IMG/VR virus record: IMGVR_UViG_3300005337_000022
Coordinates: 1-51,043 of that record
From: a virus
DNA: 51,043 nucleotides
Reading direction: 5' to 3' (one strand)
The notes beneath the pieces are model-generated. The model was not told where the DNA came from. It searched no databases and saw only the letters and a list, made by a program, of their open reading frames with translations. Numbering within the stretch: the stretch's first letter is position 1; every line of letters starts with the position of its first letter. Positions 41-27,017 of the stretch are shown in pieces. The translations under genes and the position numbers were made by a program.

Positions 41-213
41 AAGACCTCGATCAGCCGCCCGACGAACTCTGCTGAGTCCTCGTCGGAGACGTGGCCGGCC
101 ATGAACTCGTTCGTCTCGAAATCGACCGGGCGCCGCAGCACGCGCGAGTCGCTCGGCCCCTTCACGACACGCTCGTGCGGCACCTCCGTACCGTCGATCG
201 TCAGCTGCTTCAT
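1..213 (-). CDS. Junction-spanning hypothetical protein, N-terminal part
   Basis: This is the first 71 codons of a 198-residue protein whose remainder lies at 50620-51043 once the ends are joined. The ATG at 213 overlaps the stop of the methyltransferase gene as TGATG. The N-terminal part begins MKQLTIDGTEV and is basic then acidic. The C-terminal part holds a helical region resembling a winged-helix module. No family was recognised. Because the frame is uninterrupted across the repeat, the split is an artefact of linearisation. Confidence 0.8.
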   Translation of the reverse strand, partial: MKQLTIDGTEVPHERVVKGPSDSRVLRRPVDFETNEFMAGHVSDEDSAEFVGRLIEVFDRARIGPGDAFYL

Positions 214-653
214 CACCTGGCCGCCTTCGCCACGCGGTCGTACATGACGATCGAGCCCGCCACCGCCACGTTCAGGCAGTACGCCGACGGAATCTCGACG
301 ATCGCGTCGCAGACGCTAAACACGGCCTCGCTCAGGCCACGGTCCTCCGCGCCCAGCACGTAGATCGCGTGCGCCGGATGTACGAACGCGGGCAGGTGAC
401 AGCTCGTGTCGAGCACCCGCTCAACGCCGACGATCTTGCAGCGCGGGAACACGCCCGAGAGATCGTGCGCGCCGAGATCGATCAGCGGCACGTGCCGGCA
501 CGCCTTCGTCGTGTCGGTCACCTGATCGCGCGGGTAGCGCGCGCCGCCGACCGTGAACAGCAGGTCGGCCCCGAACGCGTGCGCCGAGCGCCACAGCGTG
601 CCCAGGTTCGCCGGGGTCTTGCCGCCGTCGATCCCGATCCCGAAGTAGCCCAT
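213..653 (-). CDS. SPOUT (SpoU/TrmH-family) RNA 2'-O-methyltransferase
   Basis: The 146-residue protein is a compact TrmH/SpoU domain without an N-terminal substrate-binding extension. All three family motifs are visible: motif 1 NLGTLWRSAHAFGA near residue 15, motif 2 YVLGAEDRGLS near 100, and motif 3 IPSAYCLNVAVAGSI near 123, which forms the knotted S-adenosylmethionine site. Known relatives methylate tRNA or rRNA ribose. The target here is unknown; protection of tRNA or rRNA during infection is inference. The start at 653 is chosen because it gives a TGATG overlap; an ATG three codons upstream is possible. Such enzymes are uncommon in phages of this size. Confidence 0.9.
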   Translation of the reverse strand: MGYFGIGIDGGKTPANLGTLWRSAHAFGADLLFTVGGARYPRDQVTDTTKACRHVPLIDLGAHDLSGVFPRCKIVGVERVLDTSCHLPAFVHPAHAIYVLGAEDRGLSEAVFSVCDAIVEIPSAYCLNVAVAGSIVMYDRVAKAAR

Positions 654-1045
654 CACGCGCACACGCAGTCGGTCGTCTCCGGCGCGTTCACGCCGTCCGG
701 ATCCCCGGACCGCGAGTAGCGCGCCGCCGTCTGCGGGTCGACCGGCACCTGCCCGGTGTCACCGCAGATCGAGCAGCCGATGATGCGCAGCTCGTCGACG
801 CGCGGGTCGTCCTCGAACCGAGACGACGCCGCGAAGTCCTCCTCCGTGTCGTCGTCGAAGCGAACGCGGACCCGGGGCGGGATGCCGTACGGGCGCCCCT
901 CCTCGTCGACGTCGCCGTCGGCGTCCGTGATCTCGTAGACCGTACCGATCGCCTCATCGATCGGGTGCTCGCCGTCGATGTGGACGCGAGCGCCGACGAA
1001 GTACAGCCGACCGTCGACGTCGAGGACGCGCTCGACGGTGCTCAT
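653..1045 (-). CDS. Acidic hypothetical protein with C-terminal zinc-type cysteines
   Basis: The 130-residue protein has an acidic middle rich in Asp and Glu and a small beta-rich N-terminus (LYFVGARVHIDGEHP). A C-terminal CSICGDTG motif followed by a terminal CVC resembles a DnaJ-like zinc knuckle. The ATG overlaps the preceding stop by ATGA. No family was recognised. It sits between a membrane protein and the RNA methyltransferase in one operon. Confidence 0.75.
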   Translation of the reverse strand: MSTVERVLDVDGRLYFVGARVHIDGEHPIDEAIGTVYEITDADGDVDEEGRPYGIPPRVRVRFDDDTEEDFAASSRFEDDPRVDELRIIGCSICGDTGQVPVDPQTAARYSRSGDPDGVNAPETTDCVCA

Positions 1046-1398
1046 GCCGTCGCCCGCTCGATCTGCAGGTAGGCCGACTCGTCACGCGACCACCGGCTCA
1101 GCTCCTCAGCGCCGAGCAGCTCCGGGGAGCGCTCGACCTCGACGCCGTCCACCAGGACGACCATGACCCTGGTCCCCGGCGCGACCCCGGGCTCCGTCCG
1201 AACGCGGAGGTCGCCCTGCCAGCCGCCCGCGTCCCGCGCGCTGACCGTCAGCCGCGCGCCGTCCTCGTGCGCGTTCAGGATCGAGCACGCGACGACGCCG
1301 ACCAGGATCAGGACGAACGCCAGTCCCCACCACGCGATGACCGCAGACAGGCCGGCCGCGACGAACGCGGCCAGCAGGACCGCCGTCCCGCGCCTCAC
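1042..1398 (-). CDS. Membrane protein with a tail-sheath-like extramembrane domain
   Basis: The 118-residue protein has two hydrophobic segments near residues 5-22 and 24-42, followed by a domain of about 70 residues. That domain (50-115) resembles residues 102-172 of this phage's own tail sheath (25542..27017). Both have a G-W turn, alternating beta strands, the identical octapeptide GVEVERSP, then a helix with a W-x-R-x3-S-x-Y pattern. The similarity is read by eye, with roughly 35-40 per cent identity. The gene is in the early region, overlaps its neighbours by ATGA on both sides, and has no structural partners nearby. Function is unknown; an anchored decoy or assembly guide is inference. 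Confidence 0.75.
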   Translation of the reverse strand: MRRGTAVLLAAFVAAGLSAVIAWWGLAFVLILVGVVACSILNAHEDGARLTVSARDAGGWQGDLRVRTEPGVAPGTRVMVVLVDGVEVERSPELLGAEELSRWSRDESAYLQIERATA

Positions 1399-1820
1399 CT
1401 GTCACCACCCTTCTCCAGCAGCTCGCGGACCACGGCCAAGAACTCCTCCCCCAGCTCGTAGCCGACCCCGTAGTCGCGGCTGCTCCCGCGCTGCTCGTCG
1501 ACGACGCCCTCGACGCGTTCCGGCCCGAGCGCCAGCGTCAGCAGGTCGATCGGGATGGCGATCCCGCGCGCCGCCTTCGGCCGCTGGACCTCCTCCGTGA
1601 TGTCCTCGCCGTCGGAGTTGTAGGTGAACTTCGGGCCGTCGTAGCCGACCTGGATCGTCATGTCGTCGGACTCGCGCCTCTCGATCTTGACGGACTTGCC
1701 GTCGATCGCGGCCTCCTGCACGCGCTCCATCTGCTCGCGCGACGGCCAGTCGGTCGCCATCGCGGGCTTCTCCTCCGGCGCCTCGACGAGATCCTGCGGC
1801 GTCTCGGAACGGTCCAACAT
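1395..1820 (-). CDS. Hypothetical acidic protein
   Basis: The 141-residue protein is acidic and beta-rich in the middle (MTIQVGYDGPKFTYNSDG). No family was recognised. It is the first gene after a dyad promoter site at 1859-1873. The start at 1820 is fixed by GAAGGGAGC about 6 bases upstream. It heads the operon running through the membrane protein and the methyltransferase to the window junction. Confidence 0.75.
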   Translation of the reverse strand: MLDRSETPQDLVEAPEEKPAMATDWPSREQMERVQEAAIDGKSVKIERRESDDMTIQVGYDGPKFTYNSDGEDITEEVQRPKAARGIAIPIDLLTLALGPERVEGVVDEQRGSSRDYGVGYELGEEFLAVVRELLEKGGDR

Positions 1821-2526: not shown

Positions 2527-2543
2527 GGATAGCAGTCCTATCC
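2527..2543 (-). promoter_or_regulatory. Perfect dyad promoter/operator, site A
   Basis: GGATAG and CTATCC are exact inverted halves around a five-base spacer. It is the most symmetric copy of the dyad family. TATCCT overlapping its downstream half ends seven bases before the ATG of the 54-residue gene. Confidence 0.65.
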
Positions 2544-3703
2544 TAGATCGGGTAGAGCGTGTGCAACATCCACGGCTCGCCGGCCATGCACAACGCGCCG
2601 TCGACGGAGTCGAGGTTGATCCGCTTCGGCGCGTCCTTCGCCTCGCCGTCCGACCACCACCGCACCTGCCGATCCGCCACGCCGAGCAGCTTGGCCGCTT
2701 CGGCGACGCCCAGCCGCCCAGCGATCGGCTTCAACCACGCGCGGAACGGCTCGATGTCGACCGTGCCGGGGCTCTCCTGATCGACGACGAGCCCGCTCCC
2801 CTTGCGCCCGTTGCGCGCCTTCTGCCGCAGCGGCTTCGTCTTCGCCGCGGCGATCGCCTCGTTCACCGTCCGGCCCTCACGCTCCGCCCGCAGCCGCGAC
2901 GTCATCCGGTCGGCCTCACGCAGCCGGTCGCGATCCTCCGGAGAACGCTTGCGCCGCGCCCGCCGCTGCGCGCGCACCCGCTCCGGGTTCTGCTGCCGGA
3001 AGCGCTCAGCGCTCCGCGCCGCCCGCGCGCGCCGCCGCCGCTCCGCGTACCGGTTGCACTCCTCGCAGTAGTGCTTCTTCGGCGCCCGCGCCGGCCGCTC
3101 ACCACAGCCGCGGCACAGCCCGCCGCGACGCTCAACGTGCGCCTGATCCCTGCAGCCCTCGCAGTAGCGCCGCGCCATCGGCGGCTTACGGCCACCGCAG
3201 CGCTCGCACGGCCTCCTGCGCATCGCCGAACGCGCCCGCGCCTTCGCCCGCGCCGCGTCAGCCGCGATCTCCGAGCAGTCCGCGCAGAGCCGGCGACCGC
3301 GCTCCGGCGGCTTCTCGCCGCCGCAGCGCTGACAGGGGATCGGCTTCCTGTAGGAGTTGCCCCGCGGCTCGCACGAGGCGCACAGGCGGCGACCCTGGCC
3401 GGGCGGCTTCTCGCCGCCGCAGCGCTGACAGCACGCCTGCCGCGCCAGCCGACACGACGGGCAGTACCGAGCGCCCCGCGGCGAGCCTTCCTTGCTCCCG
3501 CCGCAGCCACGGCAGACCTTCCGCGCGGCGCGCTCGTCACGACACGGTCCGCACAGGTGCCCGTTCCGCACGCAGTCGACCTTCGGCCCGCCACATGCCC
3601 GACACGGCTTCAGCGCCGGGTCGACCTCCGGCCCGTCCGGCGCCGGCACGAGCCGCAGCTCCGGACGAGCGACGAAGGGCTCCGGGCTCGGTTGCGCAGC
3701 CAC
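2543..3703 (-). CDS. Six-zinc-ribbon protein with basic linker and C-terminal HTH
   Basis: The 386-residue protein opens with six tandem four-cysteine modules between about residues 33 and 225. Each has the form CxxCGGxK, then 10-16 residues, then CxxC; examples are CRACGGPK, CRGCGGSK, two copies of CQRCGGEK, CERCGGRK and CRGCGER. A strongly basic, Arg-rich helical stretch follows (about 225-290). The last 80 residues contain a helix-turn-helix-like segment, AAKLLGVADRQVRWW. The start is GTG, directly after the TAG of the previous gene. I know no named family with this arrangement. Multivalent binding to DNA or RNA is inference. Confidence 0.85.
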   Translation of the reverse strand: MAAQPSPEPFVARPELRLVPAPDGPEVDPALKPCRACGGPKVDCVRNGHLCGPCRDERAARKVCRGCGGSKEGSPRGARYCPSCRLARQACCQRCGGEKPPGQGRRLCASCEPRGNSYRKPIPCQRCGGEKPPERGRRLCADCSEIAADAARAKARARSAMRRRPCERCGGRKPPMARRYCEGCRDQAHVERRGGLCRGCGERPARAPKKHYCEECNRYAERRRRARAARSAERFRQQNPERVRAQRRARRKRSPEDRDRLREADRMTSRLRAEREGRTVNEAIAAAKTKPLRQKARNGRKGSGLVVDQESPGTVDIEPFRAWLKPIAGRLGVAEAAKLLGVADRQVRWWSDGEAKDAPKRINLDSVDGALCMAGEPWMLHTLYPI

Positions 3704-4150
3704 CTAGACCGCCTCGATCCCGCGGAGCGTGTCGATCGTGTCCAGCACAGAGGACAGCAGGAACACCAGGCTGGTCGCGACGTCCTCGTCCTCGCCGCGG
3801 CGGATCGCCTCCTCAGCCTCTCGACCGATCGTCACGCCCACGCCCGTCAGCAACGCGGCCGCGGCCAGACGACTACCCTGCCGCGGCCGCGTCGCGCTGA
3901 TCTCCGCACACGTGCTCTCCAGCCCCGCGAGGGTCGACCGCGCCGCATCTAGCGCAGCCGAAGGTCCGCCCCACAGCGACGTGTAGCCGCCGTCCCCGTT
4001 CGACGTAGAGCGCCAGGCCGGGACCGGGGACGTCGTGCCCGCGCCCAGCGACGTCGACGTAGACCCAGCCGCGATCAGTGACCGCAGCGCCAGCCCCGCA
4101 GCGAGGCCCGCCAACGCACTCGCGACGACGGGCCGCCACCCGGCGGTCAC
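3704..4150 (-). CDS. Hypothetical protein with N-terminal membrane segment
   Basis: The 148-residue protein has one hydrophobic N-terminal segment (VVASALAGLAAGLALRSLIAA) acting as an anchor or signal. A Ser/Thr/Gly-rich stretch and a helical C-terminus follow. The GTG start overlaps the stop of the Ku-like gene by GTGA. No family was recognised. Confidence 0.7.
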   Translation of the reverse strand: MTAGWRPVVASALAGLAAGLALRSLIAAGSTSTSLGAGTTSPVPAWRSTSNGDGGYTSLWGGPSAALDAARSTLAGLESTCAEISATRPRQGSRLAAAALLTGVGVTIGREAEEAIRRGEDEDVATSLVFLLSSVLDTIDTLRGIEAV

Positions 4151-5178
4151 GACCCCGCGGCGATCGCCGCCGCGAGATCCCCGCCGCCCTGCGCCTGCGC
4201 CGAGTGGATCGGGACCCAGTGCTCGGCGCCGTCCTGCCGCGCAGCTTCGAGCAGCTCCCCGTGCAACCTCGCGCGGTCGTCCTCCAGCTCGTTCAGCGCG
4301 CTGGCCGGCTGCCGGTTGCGGCGGACGTAGTCGATCGCCGCGGCGCGCTCGGCCTCGGAGAACTCGATCTCCGTCACCTTGCCCGCAGCCGGCACGGGCC
4401 GCTCAGCCGCCGCCCACTCGACCTCCAGCAGCACGAGCGCATTGTGCCGCGCCGACGCGACGATGATCCCCAGCGCCTGGTTCGTCCGCTTCGACCAGCG
4501 CACCGCCAGCGCGCTGCTCTCCTCCCTCAGCGCCATGTACAGCAGCGCGCAGACCTTCTGCGACTCCGGGTCCTGCGGCACGACGTACTTGGCGCCGATG
4601 ATCCGCGAGCGCGGCACCGCCGCCGCGGGGATCGCCGCTGAGATCTCCATCCCTTCGAGCTTGACCTCGCGGTCGATCTCGGCCAGCTGCTTCGTCAGGT
4701 CGACGAACGTCCCGTCCTCCCTCGTCACGCCGCGCGCTGACCGTCCGATCGGCGTCTCCACGCCCAAGCGCACATCTCGTTCGAGCGCCTGCGCAGCGTT
4801 CACCGGGATGATCGGCGCCGCGCCCGGCGCCCGCGCCGGGATCAGCGAGGCCGGGTCGACAGCCTCCGGCAGGTCCGTCTCCGGGACCACCGGCGCCGCG
4901 GCGGCCGCGGCCTCCTGCTCGGCCTCGTCGCGCGTCACGCCCTCCGGCGCCAGCGATGGTGCGTCGTCGCCGGTCGTACCCACCGGCGTCTCGAACGGCG
5001 GCTGCCCGAGCAGCAACGGCGCCCCGACGTGCTCCGCCGTCCCCTCGACGATGACCTGCCCGTCCGGGCCCAGCGTCTTCGTCTCCCACCTGGTCGCGGA
5101 GGTCGTCCCCGCCACGTTCTGCAGCGACACGTCCGCCTCGACGCCGCCCAGCTTGATCGTCGTCCTCTGACCGGCCAT
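4147..5178 (-). CDS. Ku-like DNA end-binding protein
   Basis: The 343-residue protein resembles bacterial Ku in two places. The first is the opening strand pattern IKLGGVEADVSLQNV (compare the Ku start, I-x-FG-x-V-x-V-x-L). The second is the core at about 178-262, where EIS..IP is followed by Y-x-V-P-x-D, then K-x-C-A-LL-x-x-AL-x-E, then a conserved L-x-L-x-V-E-W-A-x-E-R-P. Bacterial Ku binds double-strand ends and recruits LigD. Ku genes are known in mycobacteriophages Corndog and Omega, where end joining circularises the genome. An Ala/Pro-rich insert at 70-130 is unusual. No ligase is encoded, so a host LigD would be needed. GAAGGGAGC fixes the ATG at 5178. Confidence 0.7.
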   Translation of the reverse strand: MAGQRTTIKLGGVEADVSLQNVAGTTSATRWETKTLGPDGQVIVEGTAEHVGAPLLLGQPPFETPVGTTGDDAPSLAPEGVTRDEAEQEAAAAAAPVVPETDLPEAVDPASLIPARAPGAAPIIPVNAAQALERDVRLGVETPIGRSARGVTREDGTFVDLTKQLAEIDREVKLEGMEISAAIPAAAVPRSRIIGAKYVVPQDPESQKVCALLYMALREESSALAVRWSKRTNQALGIIVASARHNALVLLEVEWAAAERPVPAAGKVTEIEFSEAERAAAIDYVRRNRQPASALNELEDDRARLHGELLEAARQDGAEHWVPIHSAQAQGGGDLAAAIAAGS

Positions 5179-9508: not shown

Positions 9509-9717
9509 CCCGACCTCCGCAGCCGCATCTCGCCTACGCGCCGCGCCCCGGCCCGCGCCTTCTTCGCCACCGGCTTCCCCGTCTTGAGCGCGACCGCGTC
9601 GATCCCGTCAGCCGCCGGATGGCAGATCCCGCAGACCTCGATCTTCGAGCCGCGCAGCCGCCAGTCGGCGCCGCGGTGGGCCGGATACGGGCACGGCGGG
9701 AGCTTCGCCGGGCTCAC
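9505..9717 (-). CDS. Small zinc-motif protein
   Basis: The 70-residue protein has CPYPAH and CGICH pairs that could hold one zinc, and a basic C-terminal tail suited to nucleic-acid binding. The GTG start overlaps the cupin stop by GTGA. Confidence 0.65.
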   Translation of the reverse strand: MSPAKLPPCPYPAHRGADWRLRGSKIEVCGICHPAADGIDAVALKTGKPVAKKARAGARRVGEMRLRRSG

Positions 9718-10286
9718 CGGTCCTCGTCTCCGCAGCGCATCCCGAAGCCGAACGTGTCGGCGTAGTCGCGGAACGACCACCACTTGCCCTCGCGCCAGAA
9801 CCCCCACCGGCGCCGGTACGGGCCCATGACCACGAGCGTCCAGCAGCCCGACGGCAGCACGCGCGTCCGGTGGGCGTACGTCTCGTGGCGGAACCGGAGC
9901 ATCCCGACGCGCATCCGGTCGCCGCGGACCAGCCCGCGCGGGGTGCCGTGATCGATGCCACACCACGGGCAGTCGCCCGTGCGCTCCGGACCATCGGGAC
10001 CCGACGGCCAGTAGCTCAGCGCCCCGACGCCGTTGCACTGCTCGCACGGCACGAAGTCGTCGTAGCCGCCCCACAGCACGAACGTCCAGAACGGCCGCGG
10101 GTGGTCGTGCGTGTCGCGGTCGTCGGCGTTCGGCAGGAAGTGGTGCAGCAGCAGCTTCACCGGCAGGCGCCGCGCGAGCCGATCGCCCAGGAACGTCCAC
10201 CGATGCAGGATCGGGCACTCCGGGTCGCCGATGACCTCTGGCCGGAACGGCAGATGAGCCCGCGGCCGCGCCGGAACGCCGCTCAT
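9714..10286 (-). CDS. Cupin-like protein with inserted zinc knuckle
   Basis: The 190-residue protein matches a cupin-type beta barrel seen in many phages: HHFLPNADDRDTHDHPRPFW with the metal HxH, WTFVLWGGYDDF, then a late His (ETYAHRTRVL) and W-T-L-V-V-M-G-P. A DnaJ-like zinc insert CEQCNGVGA...CPWCG splits the barrel near 88-115. The substrate is unknown. The start is set by ATGA overlap with the MazG-like gene. Confidence 0.75.
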   Translation of the reverse strand: MSGVPARPRAHLPFRPEVIGDPECPILHRWTFLGDRLARRLPVKLLLHHFLPNADDRDTHDHPRPFWTFVLWGGYDDFVPCEQCNGVGALSYWPSGPDGPERTGDCPWCGIDHGTPRGLVRGDRMRVGMLRFRHETYAHRTRVLPSGCWTLVVMGPYRRRWGFWREGKWWSFRDYADTFGFGMRCGDEDR

Positions 10287-10753
10287 GGCCGGCACCCGGC
10301 CAGCGCGAGCCCGTGCTCGATCGCCGCCTCAATGTCCGGCGGACGCCACCCCGGAGGCTTCCGGAGCTTGGCGCCCGGGTCGTTCACCTTCGCCAGGTTC
10401 GCCACCTGCACGACGTGCGCGACGGCGTCCTCCGGCAGCCCGTACTCGACCATCGTCCCCGACACCACAGCGTGGACGTCGACGGACTCCTGCGCGACGC
10501 TGGCCAACACGACGCGCGGCACGCAGTAGTTCGCCGACTCCTCGTACAGGAACCGCTTGACGAGGTCGTCGCACAGCCGCTGCGTCTGGACCGGGTCGAG
10601 CCCGACCATCGCCGCGACCAGCTCGCCGACCTCCTCGCCGAGCAGACGCAGGCGCAGGCGACGCCGGTCCTGCGACAGGTTGGCCGGCTCGGCGCCGACG
10701 GGCATCCCGTGCTTGCGGTGCAGCTCCAGCGCCATCGCGAACGACGAGGTCAT
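10283..10753 (-). CDS. MazG/PRA-PH-like nucleotide pyrophosphohydrolase
   Basis: The 156-residue all-alpha protein has GEEVGELVAA near 45 and QESVDVHAVVSGT near 95, matching the EExxE and ExxD metal sites of MazG/HisE-like NTP pyrophosphatases, and ends VVQVANLAKVNDPG like the phage group. Such enzymes hydrolyse (d)NTPs or alarmone-related nucleotides. It lies in the DNA-metabolism operon with ATGA overlaps on both sides. Confidence 0.75.
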   Translation of the reverse strand: MTSSFAMALELHRKHGMPVGAEPANLSQDRRRLRLRLLGEEVGELVAAMVGLDPVQTQRLCDDLVKRFLYEESANYCVPRVVLASVAQESVDVHAVVSGTMVEYGLPEDAVAHVVQVANLAKVNDPGAKLRKPPGWRPPDIEAAIEHGLALAGCRP

Positions 10754-25541: not shown

Positions 25542-27017
25542 CTAGGCGATCGACTGCGTGATCGGGACCTTGACGACGTCGATCAGCACGCGCTCGGCGA
25601 TCGGGCTCACCCGCAGCGCCACCTGCCCGTGCATCTCGCCCGCCGCGAGCTTGGCCGGCGGGTTGATCGCCGCGCCGGTGTCGACGAAGAACGCGTCCTG
25701 CGGCGTGTCGCCGAACAGCGCGCCCACCGTGTGCAACGCCATCGCCGGGGCCCGCAAGTCACCGTTGAAGATGCCCAGCGCCACCCCCTTGCCGTCGACG
25801 GTGTCGAACTCGTGCGCGTCGCCGATCTGCCGCGCGTCGGCCACGTAGGACATGACCGTCCGGACACCCGGCGCGAAGGACCACCCCGCGTCGTTCGTCT
25901 GGTCGGCCAGCGTCCGCGCGCCCCACGTCACGATCGAGCTTCCGTACCGGCGCCGCGACACGGTCACGCCCGCCTCGTTCAGCGACTTGCGCTGCGCGTC
26001 CGTCCATGCCGGCTGCGACAGGTCGATCACGAAGCGCGCGACCCCGCGCCCGCCGCCCGTGCCCGCGGCCGCGATGTTCGGGTTGCCCAGCGCGTCGTTC
26101 CGCGCGTACTGCGCGGCCAGCCGCGCGCTCGGCGGCACCGTCCGCAACGTCTGCGCCGTCAGGCCCGGGATCACGTCCCACGGAGCCACCGGCTGGCCGT
26201 AGCGGCGCCCCTTGTTCGGCGCCGTGTAGAGCGCCTGCGCCGACGCTACGAGCGTCGCGTCGCTCGCCGTGTCCGGGAAGTCCGGCAGCGCGAAGCGGTT
26301 CCGCTGCTGCCCGTGATCGAGCAGCTGCAGATGCCCAGCCGACGTCGTGCGCCCCGGCGCGCAGATCTGGCCCGGCCCCAGGTCCGCGGGGATCCGGTCC
26401 AGCGCCGCCTGCCAGTCGGCGTCGGCCAGCGCCGCGCCGTCCGCGCCCGTCGACAGCGCCGACGCGGCGACGATCGCCGGATCGAGCAGCGACGCGCCCT
26501 GCGACAGCACGATGTAGCGCGAGTTCGCCCGCGCCCACGCGATCAGCGCCGTGGTGTCGGCCAGCGACGGCGAGCGCTCCACCTCGACGCCCGAACGGGT
26601 GATCACGAGCACGACCTCGCCGCCCACCGCGCCGGCGATGACCTGCACGCTCACCGAGTTGCCCCATGCGCCCGGGTCCGGCACGCCCAGCTGGCCGGCC
26701 GTCACCACGAGCGAGATCGCCGCAGCGCCGTCGAGCAGGTTCCGCGTCGCAGCGACCGACCCCGCACCGATCGCACGCGACACGTACAACAGCGTGCCGC
26801 CCTCCGCGAAGTAGGTCTCGGCCCAGTCGTAGACCGGGCTGGAGACCAGCCGCGCGCCGAAGTTGTCGACGACGTCCTGCAGCGACCGGCACAACCGCGG
26901 CCCGTCGATCGGCCCGCGCTCCGTCGCGCCGACGATGTACGCGGTGCCCGTGTCGGACGGCAGCGTCCGCGAGGTCCCCGCGTCCTTCACGGTGACGACT
27001 ACATCAGGAAGTGGCAT
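25542..27017 (-). CDS. Contractile tail sheath protein
   Basis: The 491-residue protein has sheath hallmarks: SDTGTAYIVGATERGP near 21, FAEGGTLLYVSRA near 70, a small beta domain with GAWGNSVSVQV (102-172), then the C-terminal core GVTVSRRRYGSSIVTWGARTL and FVIDLSQ. The domain at 102-172 is echoed in the membrane protein at 1042..1398. Its presence fixes myovirus morphology. TAG directly precedes the ATG. Confidence 0.92.
   Translation of the reverse strand: MPLPDVVVTVKDAGTSRTLPSDTGTAYIVGATERGPIDGPRLCRSLQDVVDNFGARLVSSPVYDWAETYFAEGGTLLYVSRAIGAGSVAATRNLLDGAAAISLVVTAGQLGVPDPGAWGNSVSVQVIAGAVGGEVVLVITRSGVEVERSPSLADTTALIAWARANSRYIVLSQGASLLDPAIVAASALSTGADGAALADADWQAALDRIPADLGPGQICAPGRTTSAGHLQLLDHGQQRNRFALPDFPDTASDATLVASAQALYTAPNKGRRYGQPVAPWDVIPGLTAQTLRTVPPSARLAAQYARNDALGNPNIAAAGTGGGRGVARFVIDLSQPAWTDAQRKSLNEAGVTVSRRRYGSSIVTWGARTLADQTNDAGWSFAPGVRTVMSYVADARQIGDAHEFDTVDGKGVALGIFNGDLRAPAMALHTVGALFGDTPQDAFFVDTGAAINPPAKLAAGEMHGQVALRVSPIAERVLIDVVKVPITQSIA

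Follow-up and report, generated by a model that had tools for sequence, protein, structure and literature searches.

A predicted phage membrane protein that carries the outer domain of a tail sheath

The locus and the g4 gene

The window analysed is the whole IMG/VR record IMGVR_UViG_3300005337_000022 (51,043 bases, 71.6% G+C), in which almost all genes lie on the minus strand. The record is that of a contractile-tailed phage of high-G+C bacteria, with genes for a terminase, a Mu-type portal, a major head protein, a tail tube, a tape measure, a baseplate wedge and a sheath. The tail sheath protein (25542..27017, minus strand, 491 aa) was assigned from its matches to PF04984 (7e-7) and PF17481 (1e-4), each slightly short of the curated cut-off, and from solved sheath relatives; the tail tube gene adjoins it.

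The gene under study, g4, occupies 1042..1398 on the minus strand and encodes 118 aa from a GTG start; the coordinates, strand and frame of this open reading frame had been correctly recognized in a preliminary description of the sequence. Its start overlaps the stop of the upstream gene g5 (1395..1820, minus strand, 141 aa) in the tetranucleotide GTGA, and its stop overlaps the ATG of the downstream gene g3 (653..1045, minus strand, 130 aa) in ATGA; these overlaps speak for the translation of g4. Family-library searches placed neither g5 nor g3 in a known family, and g4 had no match with a meaningful E-value in Pfam, PHROGs, NCBIfam or PADLOC. The G+C content of g4 at the three codon positions (0.76/0.52/0.95) matches that of the remaining genes of the phage. 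There is no other ATG, GTG or TTG until residue 79; thus, the GTG at 1398 is the only usable start, and the hydrophobic N-terminus belongs to the g4 product. The surrounding genes are non-structural and include Ku-like, RusA-like, replication initiator and SpoU genes; its designation as the early region is guesswork based on gene content.

Several genes of the window deserve mention in their own right. The Ku-like protein (4147-5178, minus strand, 343 aa) has a Ku70/Ku80 beta-barrel domain (PF02735, 2.9e-6), and no close relative was found in the viral_contigs collection. The SpoU-type RNA methylase (213-662, minus strand; PF00588, 4e-17) lies directly downstream of g3 and has relatives in 31 IMG/VR loci, mostly at 43-51% identity. 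A protein of 386 aa with many CxxC knuckles (2543-3703, minus strand) is without a match in Pfam, PHROGs, NCBIfam and PADLOC, and the product of 9714-10295 (minus strand) matches phrog_4786, a PHROG named cysteine dioxygenase (1.9e-25), and is possibly encoded by a phage metabolic gene.

The N-terminal part of g4 is a predicted membrane anchor. Residues 5-41 (1276..1386, minus strand) form a stretch of 37 residues that is hydrophobic from end to end, with a Kyte-Doolittle mean of up to 2.6 over 19 residues; Arg2-Arg3 precede it and WWG lies at its middle. AlphaFold models built from the single sequence and with sheath rows both give a helix here. Judged by hydropathy and motifs, the segment likely consists of two short transmembrane helices with a turn at WWG, or else of a single long signal-anchor; its features suggest a hairpin of two helices, both ends of the segment being cytoplasmic. 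It should be noted that GVVAC, ending at Cys38, fits the lipobox motif, with the cysteine in a late position and followed by further hydrophobic residues.

Homology and fold of the soluble half

The soluble half of g4, residues 49-116 (1051..1254, minus strand), is a domain of the Pfam Phage_sheath_domII type, as judged by pairwise comparison, profiles, hhalign and fold. The Pfam domII outer domain of sheaths is what cryo-EM papers call domain III. The similarity is confined to residues of about 99-176 of the phage's own sheath (26490..26723, minus strand), and g4 is without the sheath core, that is, the PF04984 domain and the polymerising N- and C-terminal arms. In a BLASTP comparison of g4 and this sheath, 22 of 60 aligned residues were identical without gaps (E 5e-9). 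In 2000 shuffles the observed score was never reached, likewise after masking of the octapeptide GVEVERSP that the two proteins have in common. The conserved pattern that accompanies it reads W-x-R-x2-S-x-Y, rather than the W-x-R-x3-S-x-Y given in the preliminary description. When the 71 predicted proteins of the phage were compared all against all, g4 and the sheath were the sole significant pair (4.6e-7), the runner-up being at 0.03.

The relationship was also recovered by comparisons in which the sheath of this phage took no part. An outer-domain profile built from eight sheaths of Gordonia, Arthrobacter and Brevibacterium phages detected g4 at 9e-7, the next non-sheath protein being at 0.39. 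A profile of the nearer lineage, built from five sheaths (L082, L083, L084, L023 and L024) with this phage's sheath excluded, detected g4 at 49.9 bits (E 2e-13, 15,540 frames) and ranked it above all other sheaths of that set, barring the own sheath and the five profile members; the best chance frames in the profile searches reached about 20 bits. In hhalign, g4 scored 97.3% (P 2e-11) against six sheaths from other viruses and 94.3% against an alignment that included the own sheath, compared to 0.1-0.2% for two other proteins of this phage used as controls. The g4 sequence as the sole query retrieved sheath frames of other virus records, for example at 1.8e-5 (G008) and 5.4e-5 (G019). The PF17481 model of Pfam misses g4; the same model stays under its cut-off for the true sheath of this phage too. 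A chance likeness of two unrelated short beta-rich stretches, which might be suspected given a short region and a G+C-rich proteome of skewed composition, has practically no probability left: it is refuted by the profile that excludes the own sheath, and the shuffles, the proteome control and the hhalign controls concur. We are therefore nearly certain that the soluble half of g4 is a true homologue of the sheath outer domain.

The predicted fold agrees with this result. The single-sequence AlphaFold model was confident just for the N-terminal helix, the domain having a pLDDT of about 40-65, and was discarded as too uncertain to use. With six sheath rows, the pLDDT rose to 87-95 across residues 61-110. 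Solved sheaths lead the Foldseek results for this model with a probability of 1.00 but an E-value no better than 0.04, and in VIA-align the eleven best entries are tail sheaths (Z 5.7-8.8), compared to values of at most 4.4 for unrelated chains. The model thus points to a sheath outer-domain fold; because the sheath rows shaped and biased it, the fold match backs the sequence result without being independent of it. The suggestion of the preliminary description that a real sheath domain is present in a predicted membrane-anchored protein is borne out by the profile comparisons, including the kind of profile-profile alignment it had proposed, and by the match of the predicted fold to solved sheaths; the likeness extends well beyond the octapeptide, to a profile match at 2e-13 and the sheath fold.

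Ancestry and rarity of the architecture

The octapeptide GVEVERSP is identical in g4 (residues 85-92; 1123..1146, minus strand) and in the sheath of this phage (position 26591), as had been noticed at the outset. A pattern scan added three more sheaths and a Thermoleophilia MAG contig; the motif is present in the sheaths L083, L084 and L085, and occurs as the variants NEVERSP in L023 and QDVERSP in L082. In all five of these sheaths, it is followed by L, then W, then S-x-Y. Hence, judging from these sequences, GVEVERSP is a signature of the whole sheath lineage and not a private link between g4 and its own sheath. Fifteen columns, of which one at the edge is doubtful, are invariant in six sheaths of the lineage; g4 keeps 14 of them, including E, R, S, P and W positions that are mostly missing in nine outgroup sheaths.

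The g4 domain is 38% identical to that of the own sheath and 35-40% identical to those of L082, L083, L084 and L085, whereas the own sheath domain shares 52% identity with L083 and 51% with L085. In the tree, g4 falls within the sheath lineage (support 100/100), beside L084 (92/86) and not beside its own sheath; the AU test does not reject a pairing of the two (p 0.12). As worded, the earlier claim that the domain is copied from the sheath of this phage is thus unsupported, and the domain should rather be read, from the sequence comparisons, as derived from this sheath lineage through an old duplication or transfer. Recent copying or gene conversion from the own sheath is likewise unsupported, since the octapeptide is lineage-wide and g4 is more distant from the own sheath than the latter is from L083 and L085. 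The own sheath retains its outer domain alongside g4.

The sheath of L085 (9235-10662), which is of the same lineage and is followed by a tube-sized open reading frame, lies on the Thermoleophilia MAG contig, and this contig is the only clue to the host of this phage group.

At present, the architecture of g4 is a single case among the viruses and genomes searched. The domain was carried by 36 of 44 virus records, with one copy each and every time in a sheath-length frame. No further membrane-anchored copy was found among these 44 records, six lineage records and 25 other virus records, in 399 Thermoleophilia and 396 Actinomycetota genomes, or in the phage, plasmid, viral_contigs and genome_contigs collections searched. 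The strong domain matches all lay in sheath-length frames, except for L093, a sheath from the Thermoleophilia set that is truncated by the contig end; the Actinomycetota genomes yielded six domain matches, the weakest of them inside a frame of 357 codons. Weak matches in three short frames (L098, L099 and L101) resembled noise from frames that do not code and were set aside. In tblastn, g4 had no match in 50,697 phage records or 72,556 plasmids; no collection searched held a relative of the complete protein, and literature searches turned up no described gene of this kind. The preliminary proposal to look for transmembrane-anchored sheath domains in other phages therefore yielded no second case, and with a single example in everything searched, selection on the architecture is not demonstrable.

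In a virus of 139 kb, a frame of 170 aa that is not a sheath (L145, 1375-1887) has a weak outer-domain match (E 0.016), and the outer-domain module may be shared more widely among virion proteins.

Possible roles of a membrane-held outer domain

To our knowledge, there are working tail-like bacteriocins without an outer sheath domain. In the P1 sheath, domain III comprises residues 100-242 and projects outside the sheath (PMC10304247); the range of this sheath matched by g4 in VIA-align is 104-220, which lies within domain III. Work of the diffocin type indicates that domain I alone builds the sheath and that outer domains are not expected to touch other subunits (PMC6088184). The outer domain of phiCD508 is disordered or flexible and free of neighbour contacts, its role being an open question (PMC13324602), and in the lowest sheath ring it is associated with the triplex wing of the baseplate (PMC11948020). 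Most of the extra domains of sheaths belong to the Ig-like type, which has been described as passing frequently from phage to phage, and an aid to adsorption or to tail stabilisation has been proposed for the extra domains (PMC9230969).

The explanation that we prefer is domain shuffling, in which the beta-rich domain exposed on the outer surface of a sheath of this lineage would have been excised at its domain borders and set behind an N-terminal hydrophobic anchor. The comparisons above demonstrate the homology, the domain borders, the retained signature residues and the gene context. The anchor would place the domain at the cytoplasmic membrane of the host, where g4 could act as a tethered module that binds the same partner as the sheath outer domain, namely an envelope component if the domain faces outward, or, with an inward-facing domain, a protein of the phage or the host. 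The likeliest gain would be the occupation of that partner, for example to the hindrance of related contractile phages. Because the sheath outer domain has no known partner, that the partner is the same is something we infer. We put the chance of shuffling together with a tethered module for the same partner, leaving the exclusion of related phages aside, at roughly one in three, and consider it rather unlikely that such exclusion is the benefit of g4; the readings overlap in part, and so do the figures assigned to them.

A plausible competitor, on the unlikely side in our estimate, is generic reuse, i.e., recruitment of a beta-rich domain to a membrane protein whose job is unrelated to sheaths or exclusion, such as modifying the host's membrane or retaining one of its factors. 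The common exchange of Ig-like domains between phages (PMC9230969), the non-structural neighbours of g4, its lack of pairing with the own sheath in the tree and the weak match in the non-sheath frame L145 would all suit such a history; what it leaves unexplained is that g4 has retained lineage-specific residues of the sheath, beyond the mere fold.

Superinfection exclusion by display of the domain is less probable. In this reading, an outward-facing domain on a signal-anchor or a lipid anchor would saturate the envelope ligand that the sheath outer domain of related phages uses. The lipobox-like GVVAC, the proposed help of extra sheath domains in adsorption (PMC9230969) and the existence of surface-exposed exclusion lipoproteins in phages, such as Ltp (PMC3952083), are consistent with it. 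However, Cys38 is late for a lipobox and has more hydrophobic residues behind it, a segment of this length is more in keeping with two helices and a domain in the cytoplasm, a search of g4 against defence models gave no match, and neither an integrase nor a repressor was seen among the proteins scanned. The direction of the domain is decisive for the choice between outward display and a cytoplasmic role: with the N-terminal arginine pair inside and a two-helix hairpin, the domain would be cytoplasmic and ill-suited to exclusion at the cell surface. The decoy or exclusion role raised in the preliminary description is thus possible, depending on the predicted topology, and its fullest form, in which the phage displays the outer domain of its own sheath lineage on the membrane, saturates the envelope ligand and excludes that lineage, the sheath outer domain being an adsorption domain, seems distinctly unlikely. 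Like g4, Ltp of the Streptococcus thermophilus phage TP-J34 is small and combines an anchor with a small soluble domain (PMC3952083); the two have no known sequence link, however, GVVAC of g4 is not a clean fit to the classic lipobox, and exclusion is for g4 a proposed role. Spackle of T4, another small protein made by a phage, targets a component of the incoming phage's tail (PMC7677548), but it is a periplasmic inhibitor of the gp5 lysozyme and is without a sheath domain.

A membrane guide or tether for tail assembly, with a cytoplasmic domain that recruits a tail component recognizing the sheath outer domain, e.g., the baseplate wing, is quite improbable. The hairpin topology would face the domain to the cytoplasm, as this role demands, and the lowest ring of phiCD508 provides a precedent for an association with the wing (PMC11948020). 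Conversely, the core domain alone polymerises and the outermost domain is reported to contact neither sheath subunits nor the tube (PMC6088184, PMC13324602), g4 is located outside the tail gene cluster, and in 36 further virus records this sheath family is represented by a single copy each. The guide for sheath assembly proposed in the preliminary description is at odds with these reports; as polymerisation does not involve the outer domain, g4 is unlikely to be a scaffold or a poison in sheath assembly, and a membrane-held outer domain is not expected to join, seed or poison a sheath via normal sheath contacts. We know of no sheath domain in CisA, a membrane protein of Streptomyces contractile injection systems. 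CisA possibly links a contractile device to the membrane (PMC12237407) and is an analogy only; unlike g4, it is bitopic and part of a host-encoded injection system.

Equally improbable is a recombination by-product of a sheath gene and a membrane-protein gene that has no function. A single occurrence and the absence of a whole-protein relative from all searches would be expected of such a product, whereas the intact frame of g4, its cleanly delimited domain, its overlapping neighbours and a codon use typical of the phage would not, nor would the preservation of 14 of 15 invariant sheath columns despite an overall identity of about 38%.

With members of PF17481, g4 has in common the fold and borders of the outer domain, its sequence profile and the signature of the lineage; the known members are insertions in sheaths of several hundred residues, whereas g4 is a lone domain behind a membrane anchor and thus presents a known domain in a new architecture. 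Carrying the outer domain without the rest of the sheath, g4 is a ready-made natural probe of what this domain does. Should g4 turn out to bind the envelope or to block related phages, a role in adsorption would follow for the outer domain, and g4 would be a new kind of exclusion factor; otherwise, g4 still documents the movement of the outer domain between protein architectures.
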